Positions 3,900 through 41,787 of a DNA stretch of 64,000 bases are shown piece by piece. Every line of letters starts with the position of its first letter. The stretch's first letter is position 1. Source of the DNA: Turneriella parva DSM 21527 (GTDB lineage: Bacteria; Spirochaetota; Leptospiria; Turneriellales; Turneriellaceae); the NCBI RefSeq assembly GCF_000266885.1, contig NC_018020.1, forward strand, positions 1,426,001 through 1,490,000, read 5' to 3'. Under the pieces are notes generated by a model that was not told the DNA's origin, searched no databases, and saw nothing but the letters and a program-made list of their open reading frames with translations. The position numbers and the translations under genes are program-made.

Positions 3900-4004
3900 A
3901 AACCATTTCGCAGCGACTTCGCAGCTATTCAATCAAAATTCATTTATTGCCCGTTTGTCGCAAAATCACTTGCCAGAGCCTTGCCCCCCGCGACGCAGGC
4001 ATTG

Positions 4005-4322
4005 ATGAAGCGCTTTAGAGTCATTCTTTCTGCACTTGTGGTAATTCTCGCGATTGATGCCAGCGATGAAGTTCCCGCAGCGAGCCTCGTGACCGAGCTT
4101 TACACACGCGCCCTGCTGGCAGAAAGTTTTGCCGGGGCGCAGATCGAAAACGTGCTGCTCGGCGACCCCGAAGCGCATGCCGGAGTTTACCGGTATTCAA
4201 GCGAATTCACGGTGCGTGAAAAGGGTAAAACCAAACACTGCGAAGACTGGCATTTCAGAATAAAAAAGGCCCAGCGCACCTGGTATGTATCTGAAATTGC
4301 GAAGGGTCGCTGCAGTGGTTAA
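4005..4322 (+). CDS. Small exported protein, unknown function
   Basis: 105 residues from the ATG at 4005; a TTG 24 bases upstream is also possible. MKRFRVILSALVVILAIDAS is a signal peptide, so the product is probably periplasmic. The mature part has two cysteines (KHCEDWHF and the C-terminal GRCSG) that could form a disulfide. The end overlaps the start of the next lipoprotein gene, so the two are probably co-expressed and may share an envelope role. No family recognised. Confidence 0.6.
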   Translation: MKRFRVILSALVVILAIDASDEVPAASLVTELYTRALLAESFAGAQIENVLLGDPEAHAGVYRYSSEFTVREKGKTKHCEDWHFRIKKAQRTWYVSEIAKGRCSG

Positions 4323-5613
4323 GAAGCCAGTACCGGGCTCAATCCGCCGTGCGCTTCTTTTGGTCGGCTGTCTGGTCGGGCCGGTTCTGAGTACCGCGTG
4401 TTCGAAGTTTGTCTATGAACACGATGCTGGCCGGCTCTCGCGGGGTTCTTTTCTTTTCATGAAGAACATTTATTACCAGGGCCAGTTTGAAGAAGAAGAG
4501 ACTCTGGCCAAACGCAACCAGGCGATCGTCGATGATATGGCAACCGTCGAAGGCATCGGGGCGTTGGCTAAGAAGAAGGGCATTCTCGATGACCCTTCGT
4601 ACCCTGAATACATGTTTCGGCAAGAGCGGTCGCGGCATGCGAAGGCTGCAATCTGGTTCTGGCAGCAGAAATACAAAGAGAAATTCAACTGGCAAATGCT
4701 GTTTTCTGCCGAAAAACTGAGCTACGACGAAAAGAGTTTTGCCCGCTCAGTCGCCGAAGCCATTCGCTCGGCAAAGCCTATTGAAGATCTATACGTCGCG
4801 AGCTTCGAGGGCAAGCCGATCGTCTACAAAAACCTGCGCAGTGTGATGTCGGTCTCTGACTATGCGCAACTGCCCGCGCTCAACGAGGCCGCGATGCTCT
4901 CAGGCATGCGCGACGTGCTCAAAGCCTGGCTCGAAAAGCAGATTCATGATCGCGTTGCCTGGTCGATGAGCGCCGACGAGGCAGAGCTGCGGCGCTTTGA
5001 CCATAACCGCGTTTCAACTCTGTACTTGAAAGTCAGGTACGGCAAGGCCGGCAAAGGCATCTATCCCGGCTCGATGGACAAGATACCCCTCACTGCAACG
5101 GAAATCTATGATCATTACCATAAATTGCAGAACACGCTCGCAGACGTGCTCTGGGTGAGGGCCGCGTACACGGTTGTCGCCGATGACAACCGCGCAGAAG
5201 AAGTGATGGAAAAACTCGAGAAAGGCGCGAATTTAGCTGAACTGGCAGCGAAATACGCCAGCGAACCGAAATTCATCAAGACCGCAAGCCCCATGAAGAT
5301 CATGGGGTACGACCGGCGGCAGGGTGTCGACGCGCGCGAAAAGCGGGAATATTACGACCGTCTCATCATCGACATGGCCGCGCGCGACGTGGCCAAGCCC
5401 GAACCCTATTTGGGCAAAGACGGTGTCGTCATCGTCAAAATTTACGAAGTTTCACGTTCGCTTGAGAAGGTGAAGCTGCAAGATGTGTCGTGGAAAGTGG
5501 AGAACGACCTGAGAACCAAAATGCTGAACAGCATCTATGAGCCCGACATCAAAGACGCGCGCGACAAGCTGCGCTTTAGGTTTAACCAGAGACTGATAGA
5601 TCGGCTGAATTGA
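4315..5613 (+). CDS. Lipoprotein with parvulin (PpiC/SurA)-like region
   Basis: 432 residues from GTG 4315, which overlaps the preceding stop; an ATG at 4285 would give 442 but places residues before a normal signal peptide. The n-region KKPVPGSIRR, a hydrophobic core and lipobox LSTAC predict a lipoprotein. Around residues 285-380 the pattern AEEVMEKLEKGANLAELAAK and a later KDGVVIVKIYEV resemble parvulin prolyl isomerases, which act as periplasmic folding helpers. The catalytic region is divergent, so it may be a chaperone rather than an active isomerase. Inference is moderate; the N-terminal half is unassigned. Confidence 0.6.
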   Translation: MVKKPVPGSIRRALLLVGCLVGPVLSTACSKFVYEHDAGRLSRGSFLFMKNIYYQGQFEEEETLAKRNQAIVDDMATVEGIGALAKKKGILDDPSYPEYMFRQERSRHAKAAIWFWQQKYKEKFNWQMLFSAEKLSYDEKSFARSVAEAIRSAKPIEDLYVASFEGKPIVYKNLRSVMSVSDYAQLPALNEAAMLSGMRDVLKAWLEKQIHDRVAWSMSADEAELRRFDHNRVSTLYLKVRYGKAGKGIYPGSMDKIPLTATEIYDHYHKLQNTLADVLWVRAAYTVVADDNRAEEVMEKLEKGANLAELAAKYASEPKFIKTASPMKIMGYDRRQGVDAREKREYYDRLIIDMAARDVAKPEPYLGKDGVVIVKIYEVSRSLEKVKLQDVSWKVENDLRTKMLNSIYEPDIKDARDKLRFRFNQRLIDRLN

Positions 5614-5627
5614 CTCTAAGCCCGCTA

Positions 5628-5757
5628 CCAGCTGCATCGCCAGAATCCCAAGAGCCTCGTCGTTTGTGACCAAACGACTGCTAAAGCGGCCGACGCGGCC
5701 TGCTCTTTGCATTCTGGCTGCTGGCAGCGAGCTGCCGGTTTTCCTCGCGGAAAACCG
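5628..5757. terminator. Nested hairpins between convergent genes
   Basis: Between the lipoprotein stop and the rpsI stop there are four stems. They are an outer interrupted pair (5628-5657 with 5702-5724, sharing CCAGC, CAGAAT and AAGAGC blocks), an inner CGTTTG-TGAC-CAAACG (5661-5676), GGCAGC-GA-GCTGCC (5723-5736) and CGGTTTTCC-TCGC-GGAAAACCG (5736-5757) right after rpsI. No U-tract follows on either strand, so this is inferred to be a structured bidirectional end rather than a textbook intrinsic terminator. Confidence 0.5.
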
Positions 5758-6258
5758 TCAGCGCTTGCTGAACTGGGTTGCGCGGCGGGCTTTGTGCAAG
5801 CCGTATTTCTTACGCTCAACCATACGCGGGTCGCGGCGCAGCAGGCCTGCGGCTTTGAGTTTAGTGTGCTGTGTGTTGTCGGCGCGGTCAATGCTGCGCG
5901 CGATACCGAGAGAAACTGCCTGTGCCTGACCGGCGACACCGCCGCCGTACACATTGACATTGACGTCGATCTGGCCAACACGCTCCGTTACGACGAGCGG
6001 AGCCAAAACGGCCGCGCGCAGATCGGGTCGTGGAAAGTATTCATTGATGTCACGGTTATTGATCGTGATTTTGCCCGAGCCGGGCTTCAGCGACACGCGC
6101 GCGACCGCTGTTTTGCGGCGGCCCACGAACTGGTCGGTAGTCTTGCGTTCGCGGCGAACCTGAGCTTCAGCGCCGGCTGGCTTCAGTGCCGCCTTGCGTT
6201 TTGTCATTGATTCTGCGAGAGTCGGTGCTGCAGGGCGGCGTTCTTGTGGTTTTTCCAT
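5758..6258 (-). CDS. rpsI: 30S ribosomal protein S9
   Basis: 166 residues. The core from about residue 45 (VGRRKTAVARVSLKPGSGKI) to the C-terminal RKKYGLHKARRATQFSKR is canonical S9, whose tail reaches the P-site tRNA. S9 is usually near 130 residues, so the N-terminal ~35 residues (Pro/Ala/Lys-rich) are an extension; an internal ATG (MTKRKAAL) could be used instead. It lies 16 bases after rplM, the usual L13-S9 operon. Confidence 0.97.
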   Translation of the reverse strand: MEKPQERRPAAPTLAESMTKRKAALKPAGAEAQVRRERKTTDQFVGRRKTAVARVSLKPGSGKITINNRDINEYFPRPDLRAAVLAPLVVTERVGQIDVNVNVYGGGVAGQAQAVSLGIARSIDRADNTQHTKLKAAGLLRRDPRMVERKKYGLHKARRATQFSKR

Positions 6259-33696: not shown

Positions 33697-34425
33697 CTAG
33701 AGAGATCTTTGCATCACTCGAAAAGATTTAATCGCCGCAGGCTTGGCAATGCCTTTGTAAGACCAAAATGCCGTTAGTGAATCAACGAGTATCTCCATCG
33801 TTGCGGATAAATAGCCTTTCAAGTGTACAGGGTTAAAAGCAGGGTGCAATAGCATGCTTTTGGCTTGTCCATTTGAGATTGGCGCATAAGATTTATCGAG
33901 CATTTTTGGACTGGTGTGGACATATTTACTCAAAAAGGCATATAAGCTGTCATAATCAGTTTCGCTACCTAGGTCTCTGAAGACATGCTTTATTGACTGG
34001 TGTTTTTTTAAGCCTAATTCCTTGGCTCGCAATTCGGCCCTTTCGAACTCAGCGAGTATAGCTTGAATTGATTCTTCCGAGTCATATAAGCTTCTAAGCA
34101 GTGAGTCTTGAGGTGCTGCCCTCGCATTTACGGCAGCGGTTCTTTCTCGCTTCAATTCTTCAAAGAAAAGCTGTTTCAGATGCTTCTCATCTTTCAGGTG
34201 AAGTTTCAAATCATTTGAGGCTTCATATATGCTGCGCATCAAAATAGGTATGCCGGTTAAGGTTTCGCGTCGACCTAATATTTCTACAGAGTAAGCTAAG
34301 TCGAATTGCTTTGCGAGCATCGTGCCAGCAATGTGGTCACGCGCGGATGGGCCGTCAAATACCAAGCATGCTAATTCAGATTTGTACTCTTCTAGAAACT
34401 TTCCGTACTTATCGATCAAAAGCAT
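33697..34425 (-). CDS. DUF5677-like protein next to the nuclease-helicase gene
   Basis: 242 residues, all-helical, no membrane segment. ETLTGIPILMRSIYEASNDL and LYAFLSKYVHTSPKML (Tyr-Val-His in a late helix) resemble DUF5677 proteins, which I associate with defence neighbourhoods; this recollection needs checking. Function unknown. It follows the nuclease-helicase gene by 81 bases on the same strand and shares its A+T-rich composition, so the two may form one unit. The preceding gap (33536-33696) shows only a weak GC-rich repeat remnant. Confidence 0.6.
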   Translation of the reverse strand: MLLIDKYGKFLEEYKSELACLVFDGPSARDHIAGTMLAKQFDLAYSVEILGRRETLTGIPILMRSIYEASNDLKLHLKDEKHLKQLFFEELKRERTAAVNARAAPQDSLLRSLYDSEESIQAILAEFERAELRAKELGLKKHQSIKHVFRDLGSETDYDSLYAFLSKYVHTSPKMLDKSYAPISNGQAKSMLLHPAFNPVHLKGYLSATMEILVDSLTAFWSYKGIAKPAAIKSFRVMQRSL

Positions 34426-34506
34426 ATATTGTCCTATAGCCTAGCAATGATCTGTCTCGCAGGCATTAGTATTGCAAGCATTATGGTGCACGAAATACTC
34501 AGTTTT

Positions 34507-37500
34507 CTATTGGATCTTCGCGCGGTCAATCGGTGCGGCACCAAGCCAATCGGCAATACCTTGCCAACCTGATGCACGATAAACAGCCTTCGGGTTCGCC
34601 GGAATATCATTCGGCTTTTTACCAGACTTACAGTACTCTAGCCATTCTGCACTATTTTTTAATTTCAATGCGTGAACAAAATCTCGGGCATCGGCAAACT
34701 CCCGATAAATCATGTTTTGTGGCGCAATTGTACCAGTGCCTAGCCAATCACCCATACTTTTCCAGCCCGATTCTGCGTAAGTACTCCGTGGGGTAGCCGG
34801 AATATCGCCGGGTTTAGCCGAAGATTTACAATAAATTTTCCATTCGCGACCACTCTGCAATTTCAGGGAGTGAACAAATTTTCGGGCTGCCATAAATGGT
34901 CTATATCTCTTACGAAAATTTGCGATCGAACCGGTACCTAACCAATCACCATAACCCTGCCAACCACTATTTTTGTACGTACGGTTAGGATTTGCTGATA
35001 TATCAACCGGCCTGTTACCAGATTTGCAGTATTCTTTCCACTCTCTCAGGTTTTTCAGTTTTAGATTCTGAACAAAGTGTCTCGCTTCTACAAACGGAAG
35101 GAACTCTCTTTTGAAAGCGGCTACAGAATTTGTACCCAACCAATCCCCCCAGCTAACCCAACCTTTCTCTTTGTAGAATGGGTACGGGTTACTTGGTATG
35201 TCCCGCGGCTTTTTTTCGGAGCGAGCAAATTCGTACCACTCTGATTGGCTCTTGAATCCTAAGGTTCGAGCAAAATTCCGTGCAGCGGCAAATGGCCGGT
35301 AAGTACGAGTTGCGGTAGCTAGGGTACCAGTTCCCAGCCAATCACCCCAACTTAACCACTCACTTTGGTAAATTTGATGAGGCGCGGATGGAATATCTAA
35401 AGGTCGCTTCGGTGATCTTGAATAATTGAACCATTCAGATGCGTTCTTTAGCTTAAGCGCATGCACAAATTTTTTGGCATCGGCGAATTTCTTGTATTCT
35501 CTGTATCGAACAGCGATCGTGCCCGTGCCAAGCCATTCACCCATGCTCGTCCAGCCTGATTTCTTATATAATTTGCTGGGGGTTGCCGGTATGTCAGGTG
35601 GCTTCTTACTAGATTTGCTGTATCCTCGCCATTCCGCTTCATTTTTTAACTTTAATGAGCGCACAAAATCCCGCGCTTCCTCAAACGGCCGCCAGTTGAG
35701 CTTTGCAAGCCGGTTCCATGTACGCACCTCGAGCTCGCGAATAAATTGCTGCTCATCAATCTTGAGCGGCGCATTGACATCGATATCAAAGTCGATCAGC
35801 CTGCCGCGCGGCTTTTTGCCTTTCGATACGTCGCGAAAATATTCGACGATGCGTTCGTCGTTCGAGGCGAGTGCGCGCAGCGTGTTGATGATTTCTTTGA
35901 ACTCGTCGCTTTCGAGAATCTCGTCGCCGGTTGCGTCGCCCGTGAATAGCGGTAGAATGACGTAACCGAATTTTTTACCAGGGCTTTTGCGCAGCGCGCG
36001 GCCGACGGCCTGCACGATGTCAACGGTGCTGCGGCGTGGGTCGGCAAATAGCACAGCGTCAATGCCCGGTACATCGACCCCTTCGGTCAGGCATTTGGCG
36101 TTGGTGATGAGTGATTTGGGGGCTTTGGCAAAATCGGCGATGATTTTGCTGCGCGCCGCTGTAGGCATTTTTCCTGAAACAAAGAAGGTGTCGATGGGTG
36201 AAAAGGCGGGGTTTTGTTGCGTAAATGTATCCTGATCGCTCTTAAAAGCTTCGGCTTTCGCGATACTGCCGTGAAACGAAACGGCGTGGCGAATCGGGTA
36301 TTTCTTCATCGCCTTTCTTAGGGCAATCAGAGCAGCATAACTGCGTGCCTCGACGCCGGCTTTGAGCAGGGCGTTGTCTTTCACGGCATCGACAATATCT
36401 TGATTGCTGACTGCGAGGGTGATAATTTTGTAATCGCTCAAGATACTCGTGTCGACGGCGTGCGCAAACGACATGTGATCGAACGTTTCGCCGAATAGAT
36501 TTACGTCTTCCATGCTGGCGATGTCGTTAGACGAGCCCCGGTAGAACCGCTCAGTTGCGGTCATAAAAATACGGCGTTTAATCTGAATGTTCTTGTCGTA
36601 GAGCAGGTGACTGAACAGCTTATCGTTTGCACCAACCGTCTTGTGGGCTTCATCAAGAATTGCGAGATCAAATGTTGCCTTGGCCTTTTGGGCAGCCTGG
36701 CCCAGCGTGCGACCGCTCTGGTACGTGGTAAAGACGACAGCTTTATGGCTTTTGTTCTTCTTGAGCCATTCGGTAATTTGTTTAATGTCCGTTACACAGG
36801 GAATGCCGATATCTTGCGTGTGAATGGCTATATCGTCGTTTTTGCCGATGCCCTCATCGCTGCAGACGCAGAGCCAGCGCATATTCTCTTTGTTCGCCGC
36901 AGCTTCTCGCAGATAAACTTCAAGGGTCTGCTTCACGAGGGCGAGACTGGGCACCGCCACAACGACAGACTTCACTTTAAGTGTGTTCGCAATCCAATAT
37001 CCAGCAAGGCTCTTGCCCGCACCGCAGGGAAAAATCAGTTTTCCACGCGAATTCTTCTGGGTAACGAAATGTGTTACTGCGTTGCGGATTGCCTGCTGTT
37101 GATGCGGCCGGGGTTTTAGGGGTAATAACTTTGCTGGCTTTTTGCTGACGAGTCTGGCGCGAACATAGTCAAAGAAGGTTTTGTCCAGCTTGTTCCATTC
37201 ATCAGACAAAACAAAGCCGATATTGGGCTTACCCCGATACAGCGCTGCGTAATCATCGACAGTGGTGGCGACGAGTCCGTAGGTGATGTTCTCCGCCAGG
37301 CCAAATGACAGGCTCATGAAGGTGGATATCTTGCGGTGCGAGATTTTCTGGTTCTCATCGCTGGCATACTTGCACTGAATACTCCAGTATTCGCCTTCGA
37401 TGGTTTCGGCGATCAGGTCGATACCCTGATCTGTCGCCGGCAAGTGGAGTCTTTTAACTACTGCTGACGGTACTTCTCTAAACAGCCAGACATGCTTCAA

Positions 37501-37647
37501 CTTTGTCGCGTATTTGGGGTCTGAGAGTAAATAATATTGGGTTGTAAGCTCGAAGACATCACCCTTGGTCTTATTGTCTGCTTTATCGAGCTTCAGCGTG
37601 AGCTGTTTCCAGCTATCAACAGACTTGATGAAATCAGCAAAATTCAT
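34507..37647 (-). CDS. Mrr-like nuclease, SF2 helicase and six-repeat C-terminal array
   Basis: 1046 residues. N-terminal restriction-type domain (about 25-130) with D77 in GIDLIA and Q91-C-K93, the D...QxK nuclease site. SF2 helicase 175-620 with FPCGAGKS (206-213), DEAH (332-335), FMTATER (361-367) and QAVGRALR (546-553). Residues 652-1046 are six ~66-residue repeats (F..AR.FV..LKLK...EW..Y.KS..KP.DIP..P...Y..SGW..WGDWLGTG). The repeat resembles what Pfam calls a phage-integrase repeat unit. Type ISP restriction enzymes begin the same way but then carry a methylase; none is present. Possibly a modification-dependent or methylase-independent defence enzyme. Confidence 0.85.
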   Translation of the reverse strand: MNFADFIKSVDSWKQLTLKLDKADNKTKGDVFELTTQYYLLSDPKYATKLKHVWLFREVPSAVVKRLHLPATDQGIDLIAETIEGEYWSIQCKYASDENQKISHRKISTFMSLSFGLAENITYGLVATTVDDYAALYRGKPNIGFVLSDEWNKLDKTFFDYVRARLVSKKPAKLLPLKPRPHQQQAIRNAVTHFVTQKNSRGKLIFPCGAGKSLAGYWIANTLKVKSVVVAVPSLALVKQTLEVYLREAAANKENMRWLCVCSDEGIGKNDDIAIHTQDIGIPCVTDIKQITEWLKKNKSHKAVVFTTYQSGRTLGQAAQKAKATFDLAILDEAHKTVGANDKLFSHLLYDKNIQIKRRIFMTATERFYRGSSNDIASMEDVNLFGETFDHMSFAHAVDTSILSDYKIITLAVSNQDIVDAVKDNALLKAGVEARSYAALIALRKAMKKYPIRHAVSFHGSIAKAEAFKSDQDTFTQQNPAFSPIDTFFVSGKMPTAARSKIIADFAKAPKSLITNAKCLTEGVDVPGIDAVLFADPRRSTVDIVQAVGRALRKSPGKKFGYVILPLFTGDATGDEILESDEFKEIINTLRALASNDERIVEYFRDVSKGKKPRGRLIDFDIDVNAPLKIDEQQFIRELEVRTWNRLAKLNWRPFEEARDFVRSLKLKNEAEWRGYSKSSKKPPDIPATPSKLYKKSGWTSMGEWLGTGTIAVRYREYKKFADAKKFVHALKLKNASEWFNYSRSPKRPLDIPSAPHQIYQSEWLSWGDWLGTGTLATATRTYRPFAAARNFARTLGFKSQSEWYEFARSEKKPRDIPSNPYPFYKEKGWVSWGDWLGTNSVAAFKREFLPFVEARHFVQNLKLKNLREWKEYCKSGNRPVDISANPNRTYKNSGWQGYGDWLGTGSIANFRKRYRPFMAARKFVHSLKLQSGREWKIYCKSSAKPGDIPATPRSTYAESGWKSMGDWLGTGTIAPQNMIYREFADARDFVHALKLKNSAEWLEYCKSGKKPNDIPANPKAVYRASGWQGIADWLGAAPIDRAKIQ
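34510..35703 (-). repeat. Six tandem ~198-base coding repeats
   Basis: The 3' part of the nuclease-helicase gene encodes six units of about 66 codons. Protein identity between units is high at the EW, KP.DIP, Y, GW and DWLGTG positions, while the DNA has diverged, so the array is old or under selection. Units start near W652-R-P-F and recur at YKKF, YRPF, FLPF, YRPF and YREF. Confidence 0.8.
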
Positions 37648-37705: not shown

Positions 37706-37729
37706 CCCCCTCTCCTCAAGGAGAGGGGG
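37706..37729. repeat. GC-rich intergenic palindrome
   Basis: CCCCCTCTCCT (37706-37716) pairs with AGGAGAGGGGG (37719-37729), followed by CTGGGGGGTGAGG. It is between the nuclease-helicase gene and the ABM gene. Similar in style to the copy at 13617. Confidence 0.6.
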
Positions 37730-41137: not shown

Positions 41138-41157
41138 GTATATATCTTAGTATATAT
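41138..41157 (+). promoter_or_regulatory. Direct repeat overlapping the vapB start
   Basis: AGTATATAT occurs at 41138-41146 and 41149-41157, one helical turn apart; the second copy runs into the ATG at 41156. A candidate VapB operator and/or -10 region. Confidence 0.5.
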
Positions 41158-41389
41158 GAACACGGCAAAACTCTTCAAGAACGGCGAAAGTCAGGCTGTG
41201 CGCCTACCAAAAGAATATCGCTTCAAGGGTAGCGAAGTCTATATTACGAAACACTCGAACGTGGTGATGCTGATACCAAAGTCGAAAAACACATGGGATA
41301 TCATGAAAGAGGCAGTCGGCGAATTCAGTGAAGATATCTTTGCCGAAGGCAGGCAGCAACCTGAAGAGCAGGTGCGTTCAGGTCTCTGA
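41156..41389 (+). CDS. vapB: VapB-type antitoxin (AbrB fold)
   Basis: 77 residues. NTAKLFKNGESQAVRLPKEY is the SpoVT/AbrB swapped-hairpin DNA-binding motif of VapB antitoxins; the C-terminus (EFSEDIFAEGRQQPEEQ) would wrap the toxin. It shares one base with the vapC start. No ribosome-binding site precedes the ATG. Confidence 0.92.
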   Translation: MNTAKLFKNGESQAVRLPKEYRFKGSEVYITKHSNVVMLIPKSKNTWDIMKEAVGEFSEDIFAEGRQQPEEQVRSGL

Positions 41390-41787
41390 TGTATTTGCTC
41401 GACACGAATATCTGCATCTACACTATCAAGCAACGCTCAACCACATTCATCGACAAATTCAAAGCAGCGAAGCTACAAGGTCGCGTTGGCATTTCGGCGA
41501 TCACCTACGCTGAACTTCAATATGGCATTCAAAAAAGCCAGCGCCGCAGCGAAAATCAGGTGGCTCTCGCGCAATTTTTGGTACCGCTCAAGACATTCGA
41601 ATTTGACGAAAAGGCGGGCATACTCTTTGGCGAAATCAAAACTGCGCTCGAAAAAATGGGTACACCGATAGGCTCTTATGACATGCTGATCGCGGCGCAT
41701 GCGTTGTCGCTCGATGCGACGCTCATCACGAACAACGAGGGCGAATTTCGGCGAGTACCAGGGCTAAAGGTAGAGAATTGGCTGTAA
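41389..41787 (+). CDS. vapC: VapC-type PIN-domain ribonuclease toxin
   Basis: 132 residues. MYLLDTNICIY has the first acidic residue, AITYAELQYG the second, and GSYDMLIAAHAL plus ITNNEGEFRRVPGL the remaining ones. Cleaves specific RNAs (often tRNA or rRNA) unless bound by VapB. The 3' end overlaps the next gene by ten bases. Confidence 0.93.
   Translation: MYLLDTNICIYTIKQRSTTFIDKFKAAKLQGRVGISAITYAELQYGIQKSQRRSENQVALAQFLVPLKTFEFDEKAGILFGEIKTALEKMGTPIGSYDMLIAAHALSLDATLITNNEGEFRRVPGLKVENWL

Follow-up and report, generated by a model that had tools for sequence, protein, structure and literature searches.

The 1046-residue protein encoded in the window, the whole 64,000-nt stretch of Turneriella DNA that was analysed, is best explained as a restriction-like nuclease-translocase built on the chassis of the type ISP enzymes, methylase-free and probably reading DNA with an array of INT_rpt repeats at its C-terminus, with the adjoining DUF5677 gene as a separate accessory; we give this reading a probability of roughly 0.55. 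Its nuclease and motor have been kept and the methylase and target-recognition half has been exchanged for repeat arrays, which raises the questions of what is recognised and how self DNA is spared. The features concerned are as follows.

34507..37647, minus strand: Mrr nuclease, SF2 helicase and INT_rpt array protein, 1046 aa (ORF; Pfam; seven relatives of the same architecture)
37249..37524, minus strand: Mrr-like PD-(D/E)xK nuclease core, residues 42-133, with D77 and Q91-x-K93 (Mrr_cat_2, 5.9e-20)
36553..37119, minus strand: first RecA-like domain of the SF2 helicase, residues 177-365, with Walker A GAGKS, DEAH and TAT (ResIII, 1.5e-16; motifs)
35986..36294, minus strand: second RecA-like domain of the SF2 helicase, residues 452-554, with motif VI QAVGRALR (Helicase_C, 3.8e-12; motifs)
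34510..35688, minus strand: six tandem INT_rpt (PF14882) repeats, residues 654-1046 (Pfam, repeat analysis, AlphaFold2)
35491-35688, minus strand: INT_rpt repeat 1
35296-35490, minus strand: INT_rpt repeat 2
35098-35295, minus strand: INT_rpt repeat 3
34900-35097, minus strand: INT_rpt repeat 4
34702-34899, minus strand: INT_rpt repeat 5
34510-34701, minus strand: INT_rpt repeat 6
34426..34506, minus strand: 81-bp gap between the two genes (ORF coordinates)
33697..34425, minus strand: DUF5677 (PF18928) protein, 242 aa (Pfam, 1.9e-21; neighbourhoods)

The preliminary description of this DNA had proposed a 1046-residue chain with an Mrr-like D77...Q91xK93 site and a complete SF2 helicase, and the open reading frame, the Pfam matches, the intact helicase motifs and the alignment of D77, Q91 and K93 with type ISP enzymes all agree with it; E33 lies just N-terminal of the nuclease core. 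The 242-residue gene that it placed 81 bp downstream on the same strand is likewise where it was said to be, and both genes are A+T-richer than their surroundings, with GC3 values of 0.537 for the large gene and 0.432 for the DUF5677 gene against 0.654 +/- 0.037 for the 28 other genes of the window. Both genes have foreign codon usage. The large gene is surrounded by housekeeping genes with no integrase around it, the window yielded no tRNA gene, and an INT_rpt-type relative was present in none of the six other genomes of the genus that were searched. One genome of the genus (G001) differs around the position of the large gene, and in the closest relative (G003) the contig stops shortly short of that position.

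Type ISP restriction-modification enzymes such as LlaBIII and LlaGI (PDB 4xqk, 5ffj; PMC4666363, PMC4872093) share with the Turneriella protein a single chain in which an Mrr-family nuclease comes first and is followed by an SF2 helicase-like ATPase. In the PDB search, residues 25-617 matched crystallised LlaBIII (2e-62) and residues 170-658 matched LlaGI (2.2e-49), while the best PADLOC model, REase_MTase_IIG (1.9e-93), was covered over only the first 643 of its 1646 positions. Beyond this point the two architectures part, since type ISP enzymes continue with ISP_coupler, methyltransferase and Type_ISP_C domains, whereas the Turneriella protein lacks all three and has the INT_rpt array instead. 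The coupler PF22240 gave no match up to E = 1 (6.7e-49 and 1.6e-49 in type ISP controls), Type_ISP_C PF18135, the C-terminal target-recognition domain, gave none either (8.3e-92 in the control L087), and no N6-adenine methyltransferase was matched by Pfam. The earlier suggestion that the repeat array replaces the methylase and target-recognition domains is upheld.

In motor-bearing restriction enzymes the host is normally safeguarded by a methylase, either built in or supplied by a partner. The absence of a methylase, also proposed earlier, extends beyond the Turneriella chain: the N6/N4 motif IV pattern [ND]PP[YFW] is missing from every INT_rpt-type chain and from every chain of a cousin type with HA repeats, and a motif scan of the window and of the searched flanks of seven relatives detected no methylase signature.

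Seven further Mrr-SF2-INT_rpt proteins (L016-L019, L110, L111, L116) belong to four phyla and carry 5-12 repeats, with 5 in L116, 10 in L019 and 12 in L111; the family has spread horizontally. The nuclease residues, on whose conservation in homologues the preliminary description had made its proposal depend, are kept in all relatives (8/8 INT_rpt-type proteins), and every INT_rpt-type chain that could be read has intact E33, D77, Q91xK93, Walker A, TAT and motif VI. In most INT_rpt-type neighbourhoods no defence gene occurs among the neighbours examined; a BglII-like restriction nuclease gene adjoins L111, which like L019 has an integrase nearby, and no integrase was seen by eye among the listed ORFs around L110 and L116. 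Viral contigs yielded no relative with a single-protein query and, with an alignment query, repeat arrays but no Mrr-SF2-INT_rpt protein, and no full-length relative of the large protein was found in phages and plasmids. The PF14882 Pfam model used as a genome query was blank even on Turneriella's own genome, and absence by this query was not used.

The same Mrr-SF2 chassis, again without a methylase motif and with a tandem C-terminal repeat array, was also found in five proteins (L058, L074, L076, L112, L115) whose repeat is HA (PF03457) and not INT_rpt, with 5-8 copies counted in L058, L074 and L076; HA repeats gave no match up to E = 1 in the Turneriella protein. The INT_rpt-type proteins L018 and L116 are grouped in the tree with the HA-type L058 at 100/100 support, so the type of repeat has been exchanged at least once on this chassis, and the type ISP rows form a single clade of their own (100/100), on a branch separate from the INT_rpt type. 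Mrr-SF2-HA proteins are annotated as 'DEAD/DEAH box helicase' or 'Helicase associated domain protein', two of them (L074, L076) being Rhodococcus plasmid proteins, and no characterisation of them was found either.

The six repeats of about 66 residues noticed earlier are real, measuring 66/65/66/66/66/64 residues over 654-1046 and recurring at the DNA level as six copies spaced 195-198 nt apart. They belong to an already known Pfam family, INT_rpt (PF14882), which matched the protein at 2.4e-12 with 47.4 bits against a curated cut-off of 26.5, and for which almost no literature was found in the one library searched. AlphaFold2 predicted four short helices per repeat for repeats 3-5 (pLDDT 86), with a pTM of 0.43 for this three-repeat model because the repeat-to-repeat orientation is uncertain; the full-length model had a mean pLDDT of 67.8. 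No credible match to the three-repeat model was obtained from the PDB by fold, and neither sequence nor fold search found a solved relative of INT_rpt.

Variability within the repeats is concentrated at the same few columns in nearly every array (17, 18, 21, 35, 36, 38-40, 47, 49, 57, 60, 61), where pN/pS is 0.72-1.25 with intervals that mostly include 1, approximately the synonymous rate, while the repeat framework is strongly constrained (0.20-0.51; 0.32 in the array of the window). A ratio near 1 at the variable columns fits an unconstrained surface as well as it fits specificity residues. Positive selection on these columns is not claimed, pN exceeding pS only in L053 and L055 with intervals that include 1.

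The company kept by INT_rpt elsewhere strengthens the earlier suggestion that the array may recognise DNA, for it is joined to Integrase_2, an HNH nuclease, other SF2 helicases and jumbo-phage proteins, in bacteria, plasmids and viral contigs, and the integrase, HNH and helicase partners all act on DNA. The VPA1269-family integrase of gamma-mobile-trio (GMT) elements, encoded between gmtY and gmtX, carries such an array (8 repeats in Marinobacter pMAQU02; PF14882 2.6e-73) on an Integrase_2 / tyrosine recombinase catalytic part, for which the Mrr-SF2 protein of Turneriella gave no match. Jumbo-phage and giant-virus helicases (L053, L054 and, by fold, a Klosneuvirus SF2 helicase) likewise combine an INT_rpt-like array with an SF2 helicase but have no Mrr nuclease; in L053 and L054 the array is N-terminal, and L053 also has a Methyltransf_8 domain.

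On the preferred reading, the array would bind particular DNA, most likely as a long composite sequence with a short stretch for each repeat, whereupon the SF2 motor would hydrolyse ATP and move along or remodel the DNA, and the Mrr domain, as in LlaBIII/LlaGI, would nick or cut once the motor stalled or ran into another enzyme. We propose that so long a target would seldom or never occur in the host genome, making a methylase unnecessary. In nature the protein would most likely serve to keep out phage or other mobile DNA. A bolder and tentative extension is that each 66-residue unit reads its short DNA stretch through the variable residues, the number and order of units setting a long target, so that the Mrr-SF2 protein would be a methylase-free machine of long specificity and the same reader would guide integrases, HNH nucleases and viral helicases by a TALE-like code distinct from those already known. 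If the variable residues do encode specificity, INT_rpt would constitute a new modular DNA-reading scaffold.

Reading of modified bases or glucosylated phage DNA by the array, as in a modification-dependent, type IV-like enzyme, would also explain the missing methylase, in the protein and in the searched flanks alike, and type IV systems also combine a nuclease with an NTP-driven motor. This is nevertheless unlikely, since known modified-base readers (SRA, YTH, EVE) went unmatched in Pfam scans of four full-length relatives and of the Turneriella protein, and an array of 5-12 units that vary among themselves suits the reading of a sequence better than that of a single modified base. Comparably improbable is that the protein serves a mobile element and not the host, by excluding rivals or by homing-like cutting of the uninserted site: the GMT-element integrases, the jumbo-phage and other viral-contig proteins with INT_rpt, the integrases near L111 and L019 and the patchy distribution over four phyla point that way, but the Turneriella copy lies among housekeeping genes with no integrase, no tRNA gene turned up in the window, and L110 and L116 have no integrase among the ORFs inspected by eye.

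A host DNA-repair or genome-maintenance helicase-nuclease, RadD- or XPB-like and gripping nucleic acids generally through the array, would account for the weak resemblance of the helicase to RadD (3.5e-09) and RAD25/XPB (3.3e-05) seen in the PDB search and NCBIfam; the type ISP similarity is stronger by more than 50 orders of magnitude, and the gene is rare, patchy and foreign in codon usage, unlike housekeeping repair genes, which makes this account quite improbable. Least probable, and largely refuted, is the decay of a type ISP enzyme, with loss of the methylase half and chance gain of a repeat tail. The chassis is indeed homologous to type ISP and truncated type ISP-like chains exist (L088, 721 aa), yet the architecture is kept in seven independent genomes with catalytic motifs intact, the repeat framework is under the strong constraint given above, and the type ISP enzymes form their own clade.

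The downstream gene was rightly called DUF5677-like, as its PF18928 match attests, and no terminator-like site was found in the 81-bp gap. The proposal that the two genes form a conserved unit did not survive: DUF5677 adjoins none of the 12 relatives whose flanks were searched (seven INT_rpt-type, five HA-type), which is the first of the outcomes that the preliminary description had named as refuting it, and a fixed helicase-DUF5677 pair is rejected. Among ten other DUF5677 genes, four lie inside type I restriction loci (in L078 and L079 next to a RhuM-like gene, called by eye) and another adjoins an AIPR gene. Accessory toxins of the HEPN class that sit within restriction operons, including PrrC/RloC and other clades (PMC3710099), take a similar place. 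HEPN RNases have an R-x4-6-H motif, whereas DUF5677 has R64-x3-E68 and Y162-x7-H170; in the DUF5677 alignment H170 and R64/E68 are conserved, no arginine stands 5-7 residues before H170, and assignment to classical HEPN was rejected. The protein had no PDB match and, in the one library searched, no relevant literature. Judged from its neighbourhoods, DUF5677 is best read as a mobile restriction accessory and not a fixed partner of the helicase, probably acquired alongside it and possibly acting as a back-up effector, and its repeated siting in type I restriction loci offers a functional lead.

The protein at the centre of this locus can be described, judging from its sequence, as a type-ISP-like nuclease-motor carrying an exchangeable repeat array and no methylase, with a putative function. 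It lies 81 bp from a second ORF on the same strand, and both ORFs had been accurately placed in the preliminary description:

34507-37647, minus strand, ORF of 1046 aa with Mrr_cat_2, ResIII, Helicase_C and INT_rpt domains
33697-34425, minus strand, ORF of 242 aa with a DUF5677 domain

The best solved relative of the 1046-aa protein by sequence was LlaBIII (residues 25-617, 2e-62), followed by LlaGI (residues 170-658, 2.2e-49), with RadD and XPB-like helicases as far weaker matches, while PADLOC matched only positions 1-643 of the 1646 in its REase_MTase_IIG model. The nuclease-motor chassis is shared with these type ISP enzymes, in which it is followed by a coupler, a methyltransferase and a TRD (PMC4666363); however, none of the three was detected by Pfam in the window protein, whereas ISP_coupler, N6_Mtase and Type_ISP_C were all detected in the type ISP control L087. 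Likewise, motif scanning found no motif IV ([ND]PP[YFW]) in any chain of the window protein's group. The earlier architectural claim, a type-ISP-like nuclease-motor followed by repeats in place of a methylase, is thereby strengthened; the nuclease-motor was already known from type ISP, and what is new is that it is combined here with repeat arrays that can be exchanged and lacks a methylase. On the Planococcus plasmid L088, a 721-aa Mrr-SF2 protein has neither methylase nor repeats, and the intervals 476-1264 and 3965-6130, ~2.7 kb apart, hold a SMODS nucleotidyltransferase (CBASS-type) gene and the Mrr-SF2 gene.

Genome-wide searches yielded seven proteins of the same architecture, which together with the window protein cover four phyla:

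L016, Akkermansiaceae, INT_rpt-type, interrupted
L017, Lentisphaerae, INT_rpt-type
L018, Legionellales, INT_rpt-type
L019, Desulfobacteraceae, INT_rpt-type
L110 and L111, same phylum as L016, INT_rpt-type
L116, same phylum as L018, INT_rpt-type

E33, D77, Q91xK93, Walker A, TAT and motif VI are retained in every readable INT_rpt-type protein. The repeats number 6 in the window protein and 7, 5, 10, 10, 7, 12 and 5 in the relatives, the seven of L016 being those of its readable part. The Akkermansiaceae copy (L016 2109-6723) is split into several frames, reflecting either decay or an assembly error. Most of these loci have ordinary neighbours. The clearest departure is L111, where the adjoining genes encode a BglII-like restriction nuclease and an HNH-WYL protein and a tyrosine integrase lies within 6 kb; a tyrosine integrase is also found ~1.3 kb from the L019 gene.

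Among 393 genomes of the window's phylum, just one other protein, L058, scored far above the level of type ISP proteins, and its repeats are HA (PF03457), not INT_rpt. HA replaces INT_rpt in five relatives, assigned by Pfam in L058, L074 and L076 and by eye from sequence in L112 and L115; key nuclease and helicase residues are lost in L074. In a tree inferred by maximum likelihood from the Mrr-SF2 part only, whose midpoint root gives no direction of change, type ISP formed a single clade (100/100), while the INT_rpt-type proteins fell into two groups, L018 and L116 grouping with HA-type L058 (100/100). Given the well-supported branches, the INT_rpt label must have changed at least twice, and hence the C-terminal reader has been swapped on a common Mrr-SF2 chassis. 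Both types occur at separate loci of one genome in two cases (L112 8047-11565 with L016; L115 4771-7629 with L019), which suggests that INT_rpt and HA readers serve different targets.

The array of the window protein spans residues 654-1046 in six repeats of 64-66 residues, visible in the DNA as a periodicity of 195-198 nt. The same kind of array occurs in the GMT element on pMAQU02, where the gene between gmtY and gmtX encodes eight INT_rpt repeats attached to a different catalytic part, an Integrase_2/tyrosine recombinase. On viral contigs, four repeats are fused to an HNH endonuclease domain (L056 7899-9152), and on a 379-kb contig (L053 7992-12221) a single chain of 1409 aa combines eight near-identical repeats with a Methyltransf_8 domain and an SF2/SNF2-like helicase. 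Four consecutive ORFs of viral contig L054 (5440-10791), slightly overlapping in different frames, hold 2, 5, 3 and 6 copies, and in the first of them the repeats are joined to an SF2 helicase that weakly matches HA; array-only ORFs also occur. In view of the fusions to integrase, HNH and helicases, the array probably recognises DNA. No PDB match to it was obtained by sequence or by fold, and a survey of repeat families from 2021 (PMC8078820) had no structural template for INT_rpt (PF14882); the fold search of a viral library gave a Klosneuvirus SF2 helicase (5.2e-04). AlphaFold2, applied to three repeats with 47 aligned triplets, predicted four short helices per repeat (pLDDT 86) in uncertain relative placement.

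Across 95 repeats from 15 ORFs, W20, P30, P34, Y41, W46, D51, W52, L53 and G54 were near-invariant, and the recurrently varying columns were mainly 17, 18, 21, 35, 36, 38-40, 49, 57, 60 and 61. When columns were picked from the other arrays and compared with 2000 random draws of 12 columns per array, no draw reached the observed nonsynonymous divergence in eight of ten arrays, the exceptions being L055, another INT_rpt array (2/2000), and L116 (127/2000). With pN/pS of 0.20-0.51 for the framework and 0.72-1.25 for the variable columns (intervals mostly including 1), the repeat is a constrained scaffold bearing free positions. These fit specificity residues and unconstrained surface equally, so a repeat-based DNA code is put forward as a hypothesis.

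Neither N6/N4 nor C5 methylases were found in the window or the flanks of the seven relatives (up to ~10 kb, less at contig ends) by a motif scan, which is cruder than a profile search. The favoured explanation of how the host would be spared is a long composite target absent from its own DNA; the main rival is that the enzyme acts only on modified DNA.

Turneriella parva, whose type strain H^T is a free-living spirochaete (PMC3746428), has a genome of 4,409,302 bp in two contigs, and by eye the locus is surrounded by housekeeping genes. Both genes are A+T-rich, as initially noticed, with atypical third-position GC (0.537 in the helicase gene and 0.432 in the DUF5677 gene, against 0.654 +/- 0.037), a sign of horizontal acquisition; as the two values differ, the genes may have arrived together or separately.

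The proposal that the two genes form a unit did not hold, as a profile from eleven members found no DUF5677 in the relatives' flanks. Among the genomes of L016-L019, supported DUF5677 was present only in that of L019 (2e-18), away from the helicase locus and adjoining an AIPR gene. Among ten other copies in the window's phylum, four lie in type I loci:

L078 4686-5612, with HsdS
L079 4703-5614, with HsdM and HsdS
L080 4110-5582, with HsdM, HsdS and HsdR
L081 4855-5703, with HsdM, HsdS and HsdR

In L081 the DUF5677 gene overlaps the hsdR start by a few bases, and in L078 and L079 a RhuM-like gene (by eye) comes next. The family is thus restriction-linked in this small sample of eleven loci of one phylum and one other genome. 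HEPN toxins sit in such restriction operons, some with RhuM, and are read as second-line effectors (PMC3710099); DUF5677, for which no functional paper came up in the literature searched, shares this setting but not the HEPN motif, and by analogy, with no claim of membership, could be a back-up effector. Its conserved residues are R64, E68, Y162 and H170.

About 4 kb from the two genes, a small gene directly followed by a PIN-domain gene (VapC-like, by eye) at 41156-41787 is a probable type II toxin-antitoxin pair. The intergenic region upstream of the helicase gene contains the palindrome CCCCTCTCCTCAAGGAGAGGGG (37707-37728), a REP- or MITE-like element. Exact copies of its core CCTCTCCTNNAGGAGAGG number 10 genome-wide, and 13 with one mismatch, compared with none for the reversed sequence used as a control.
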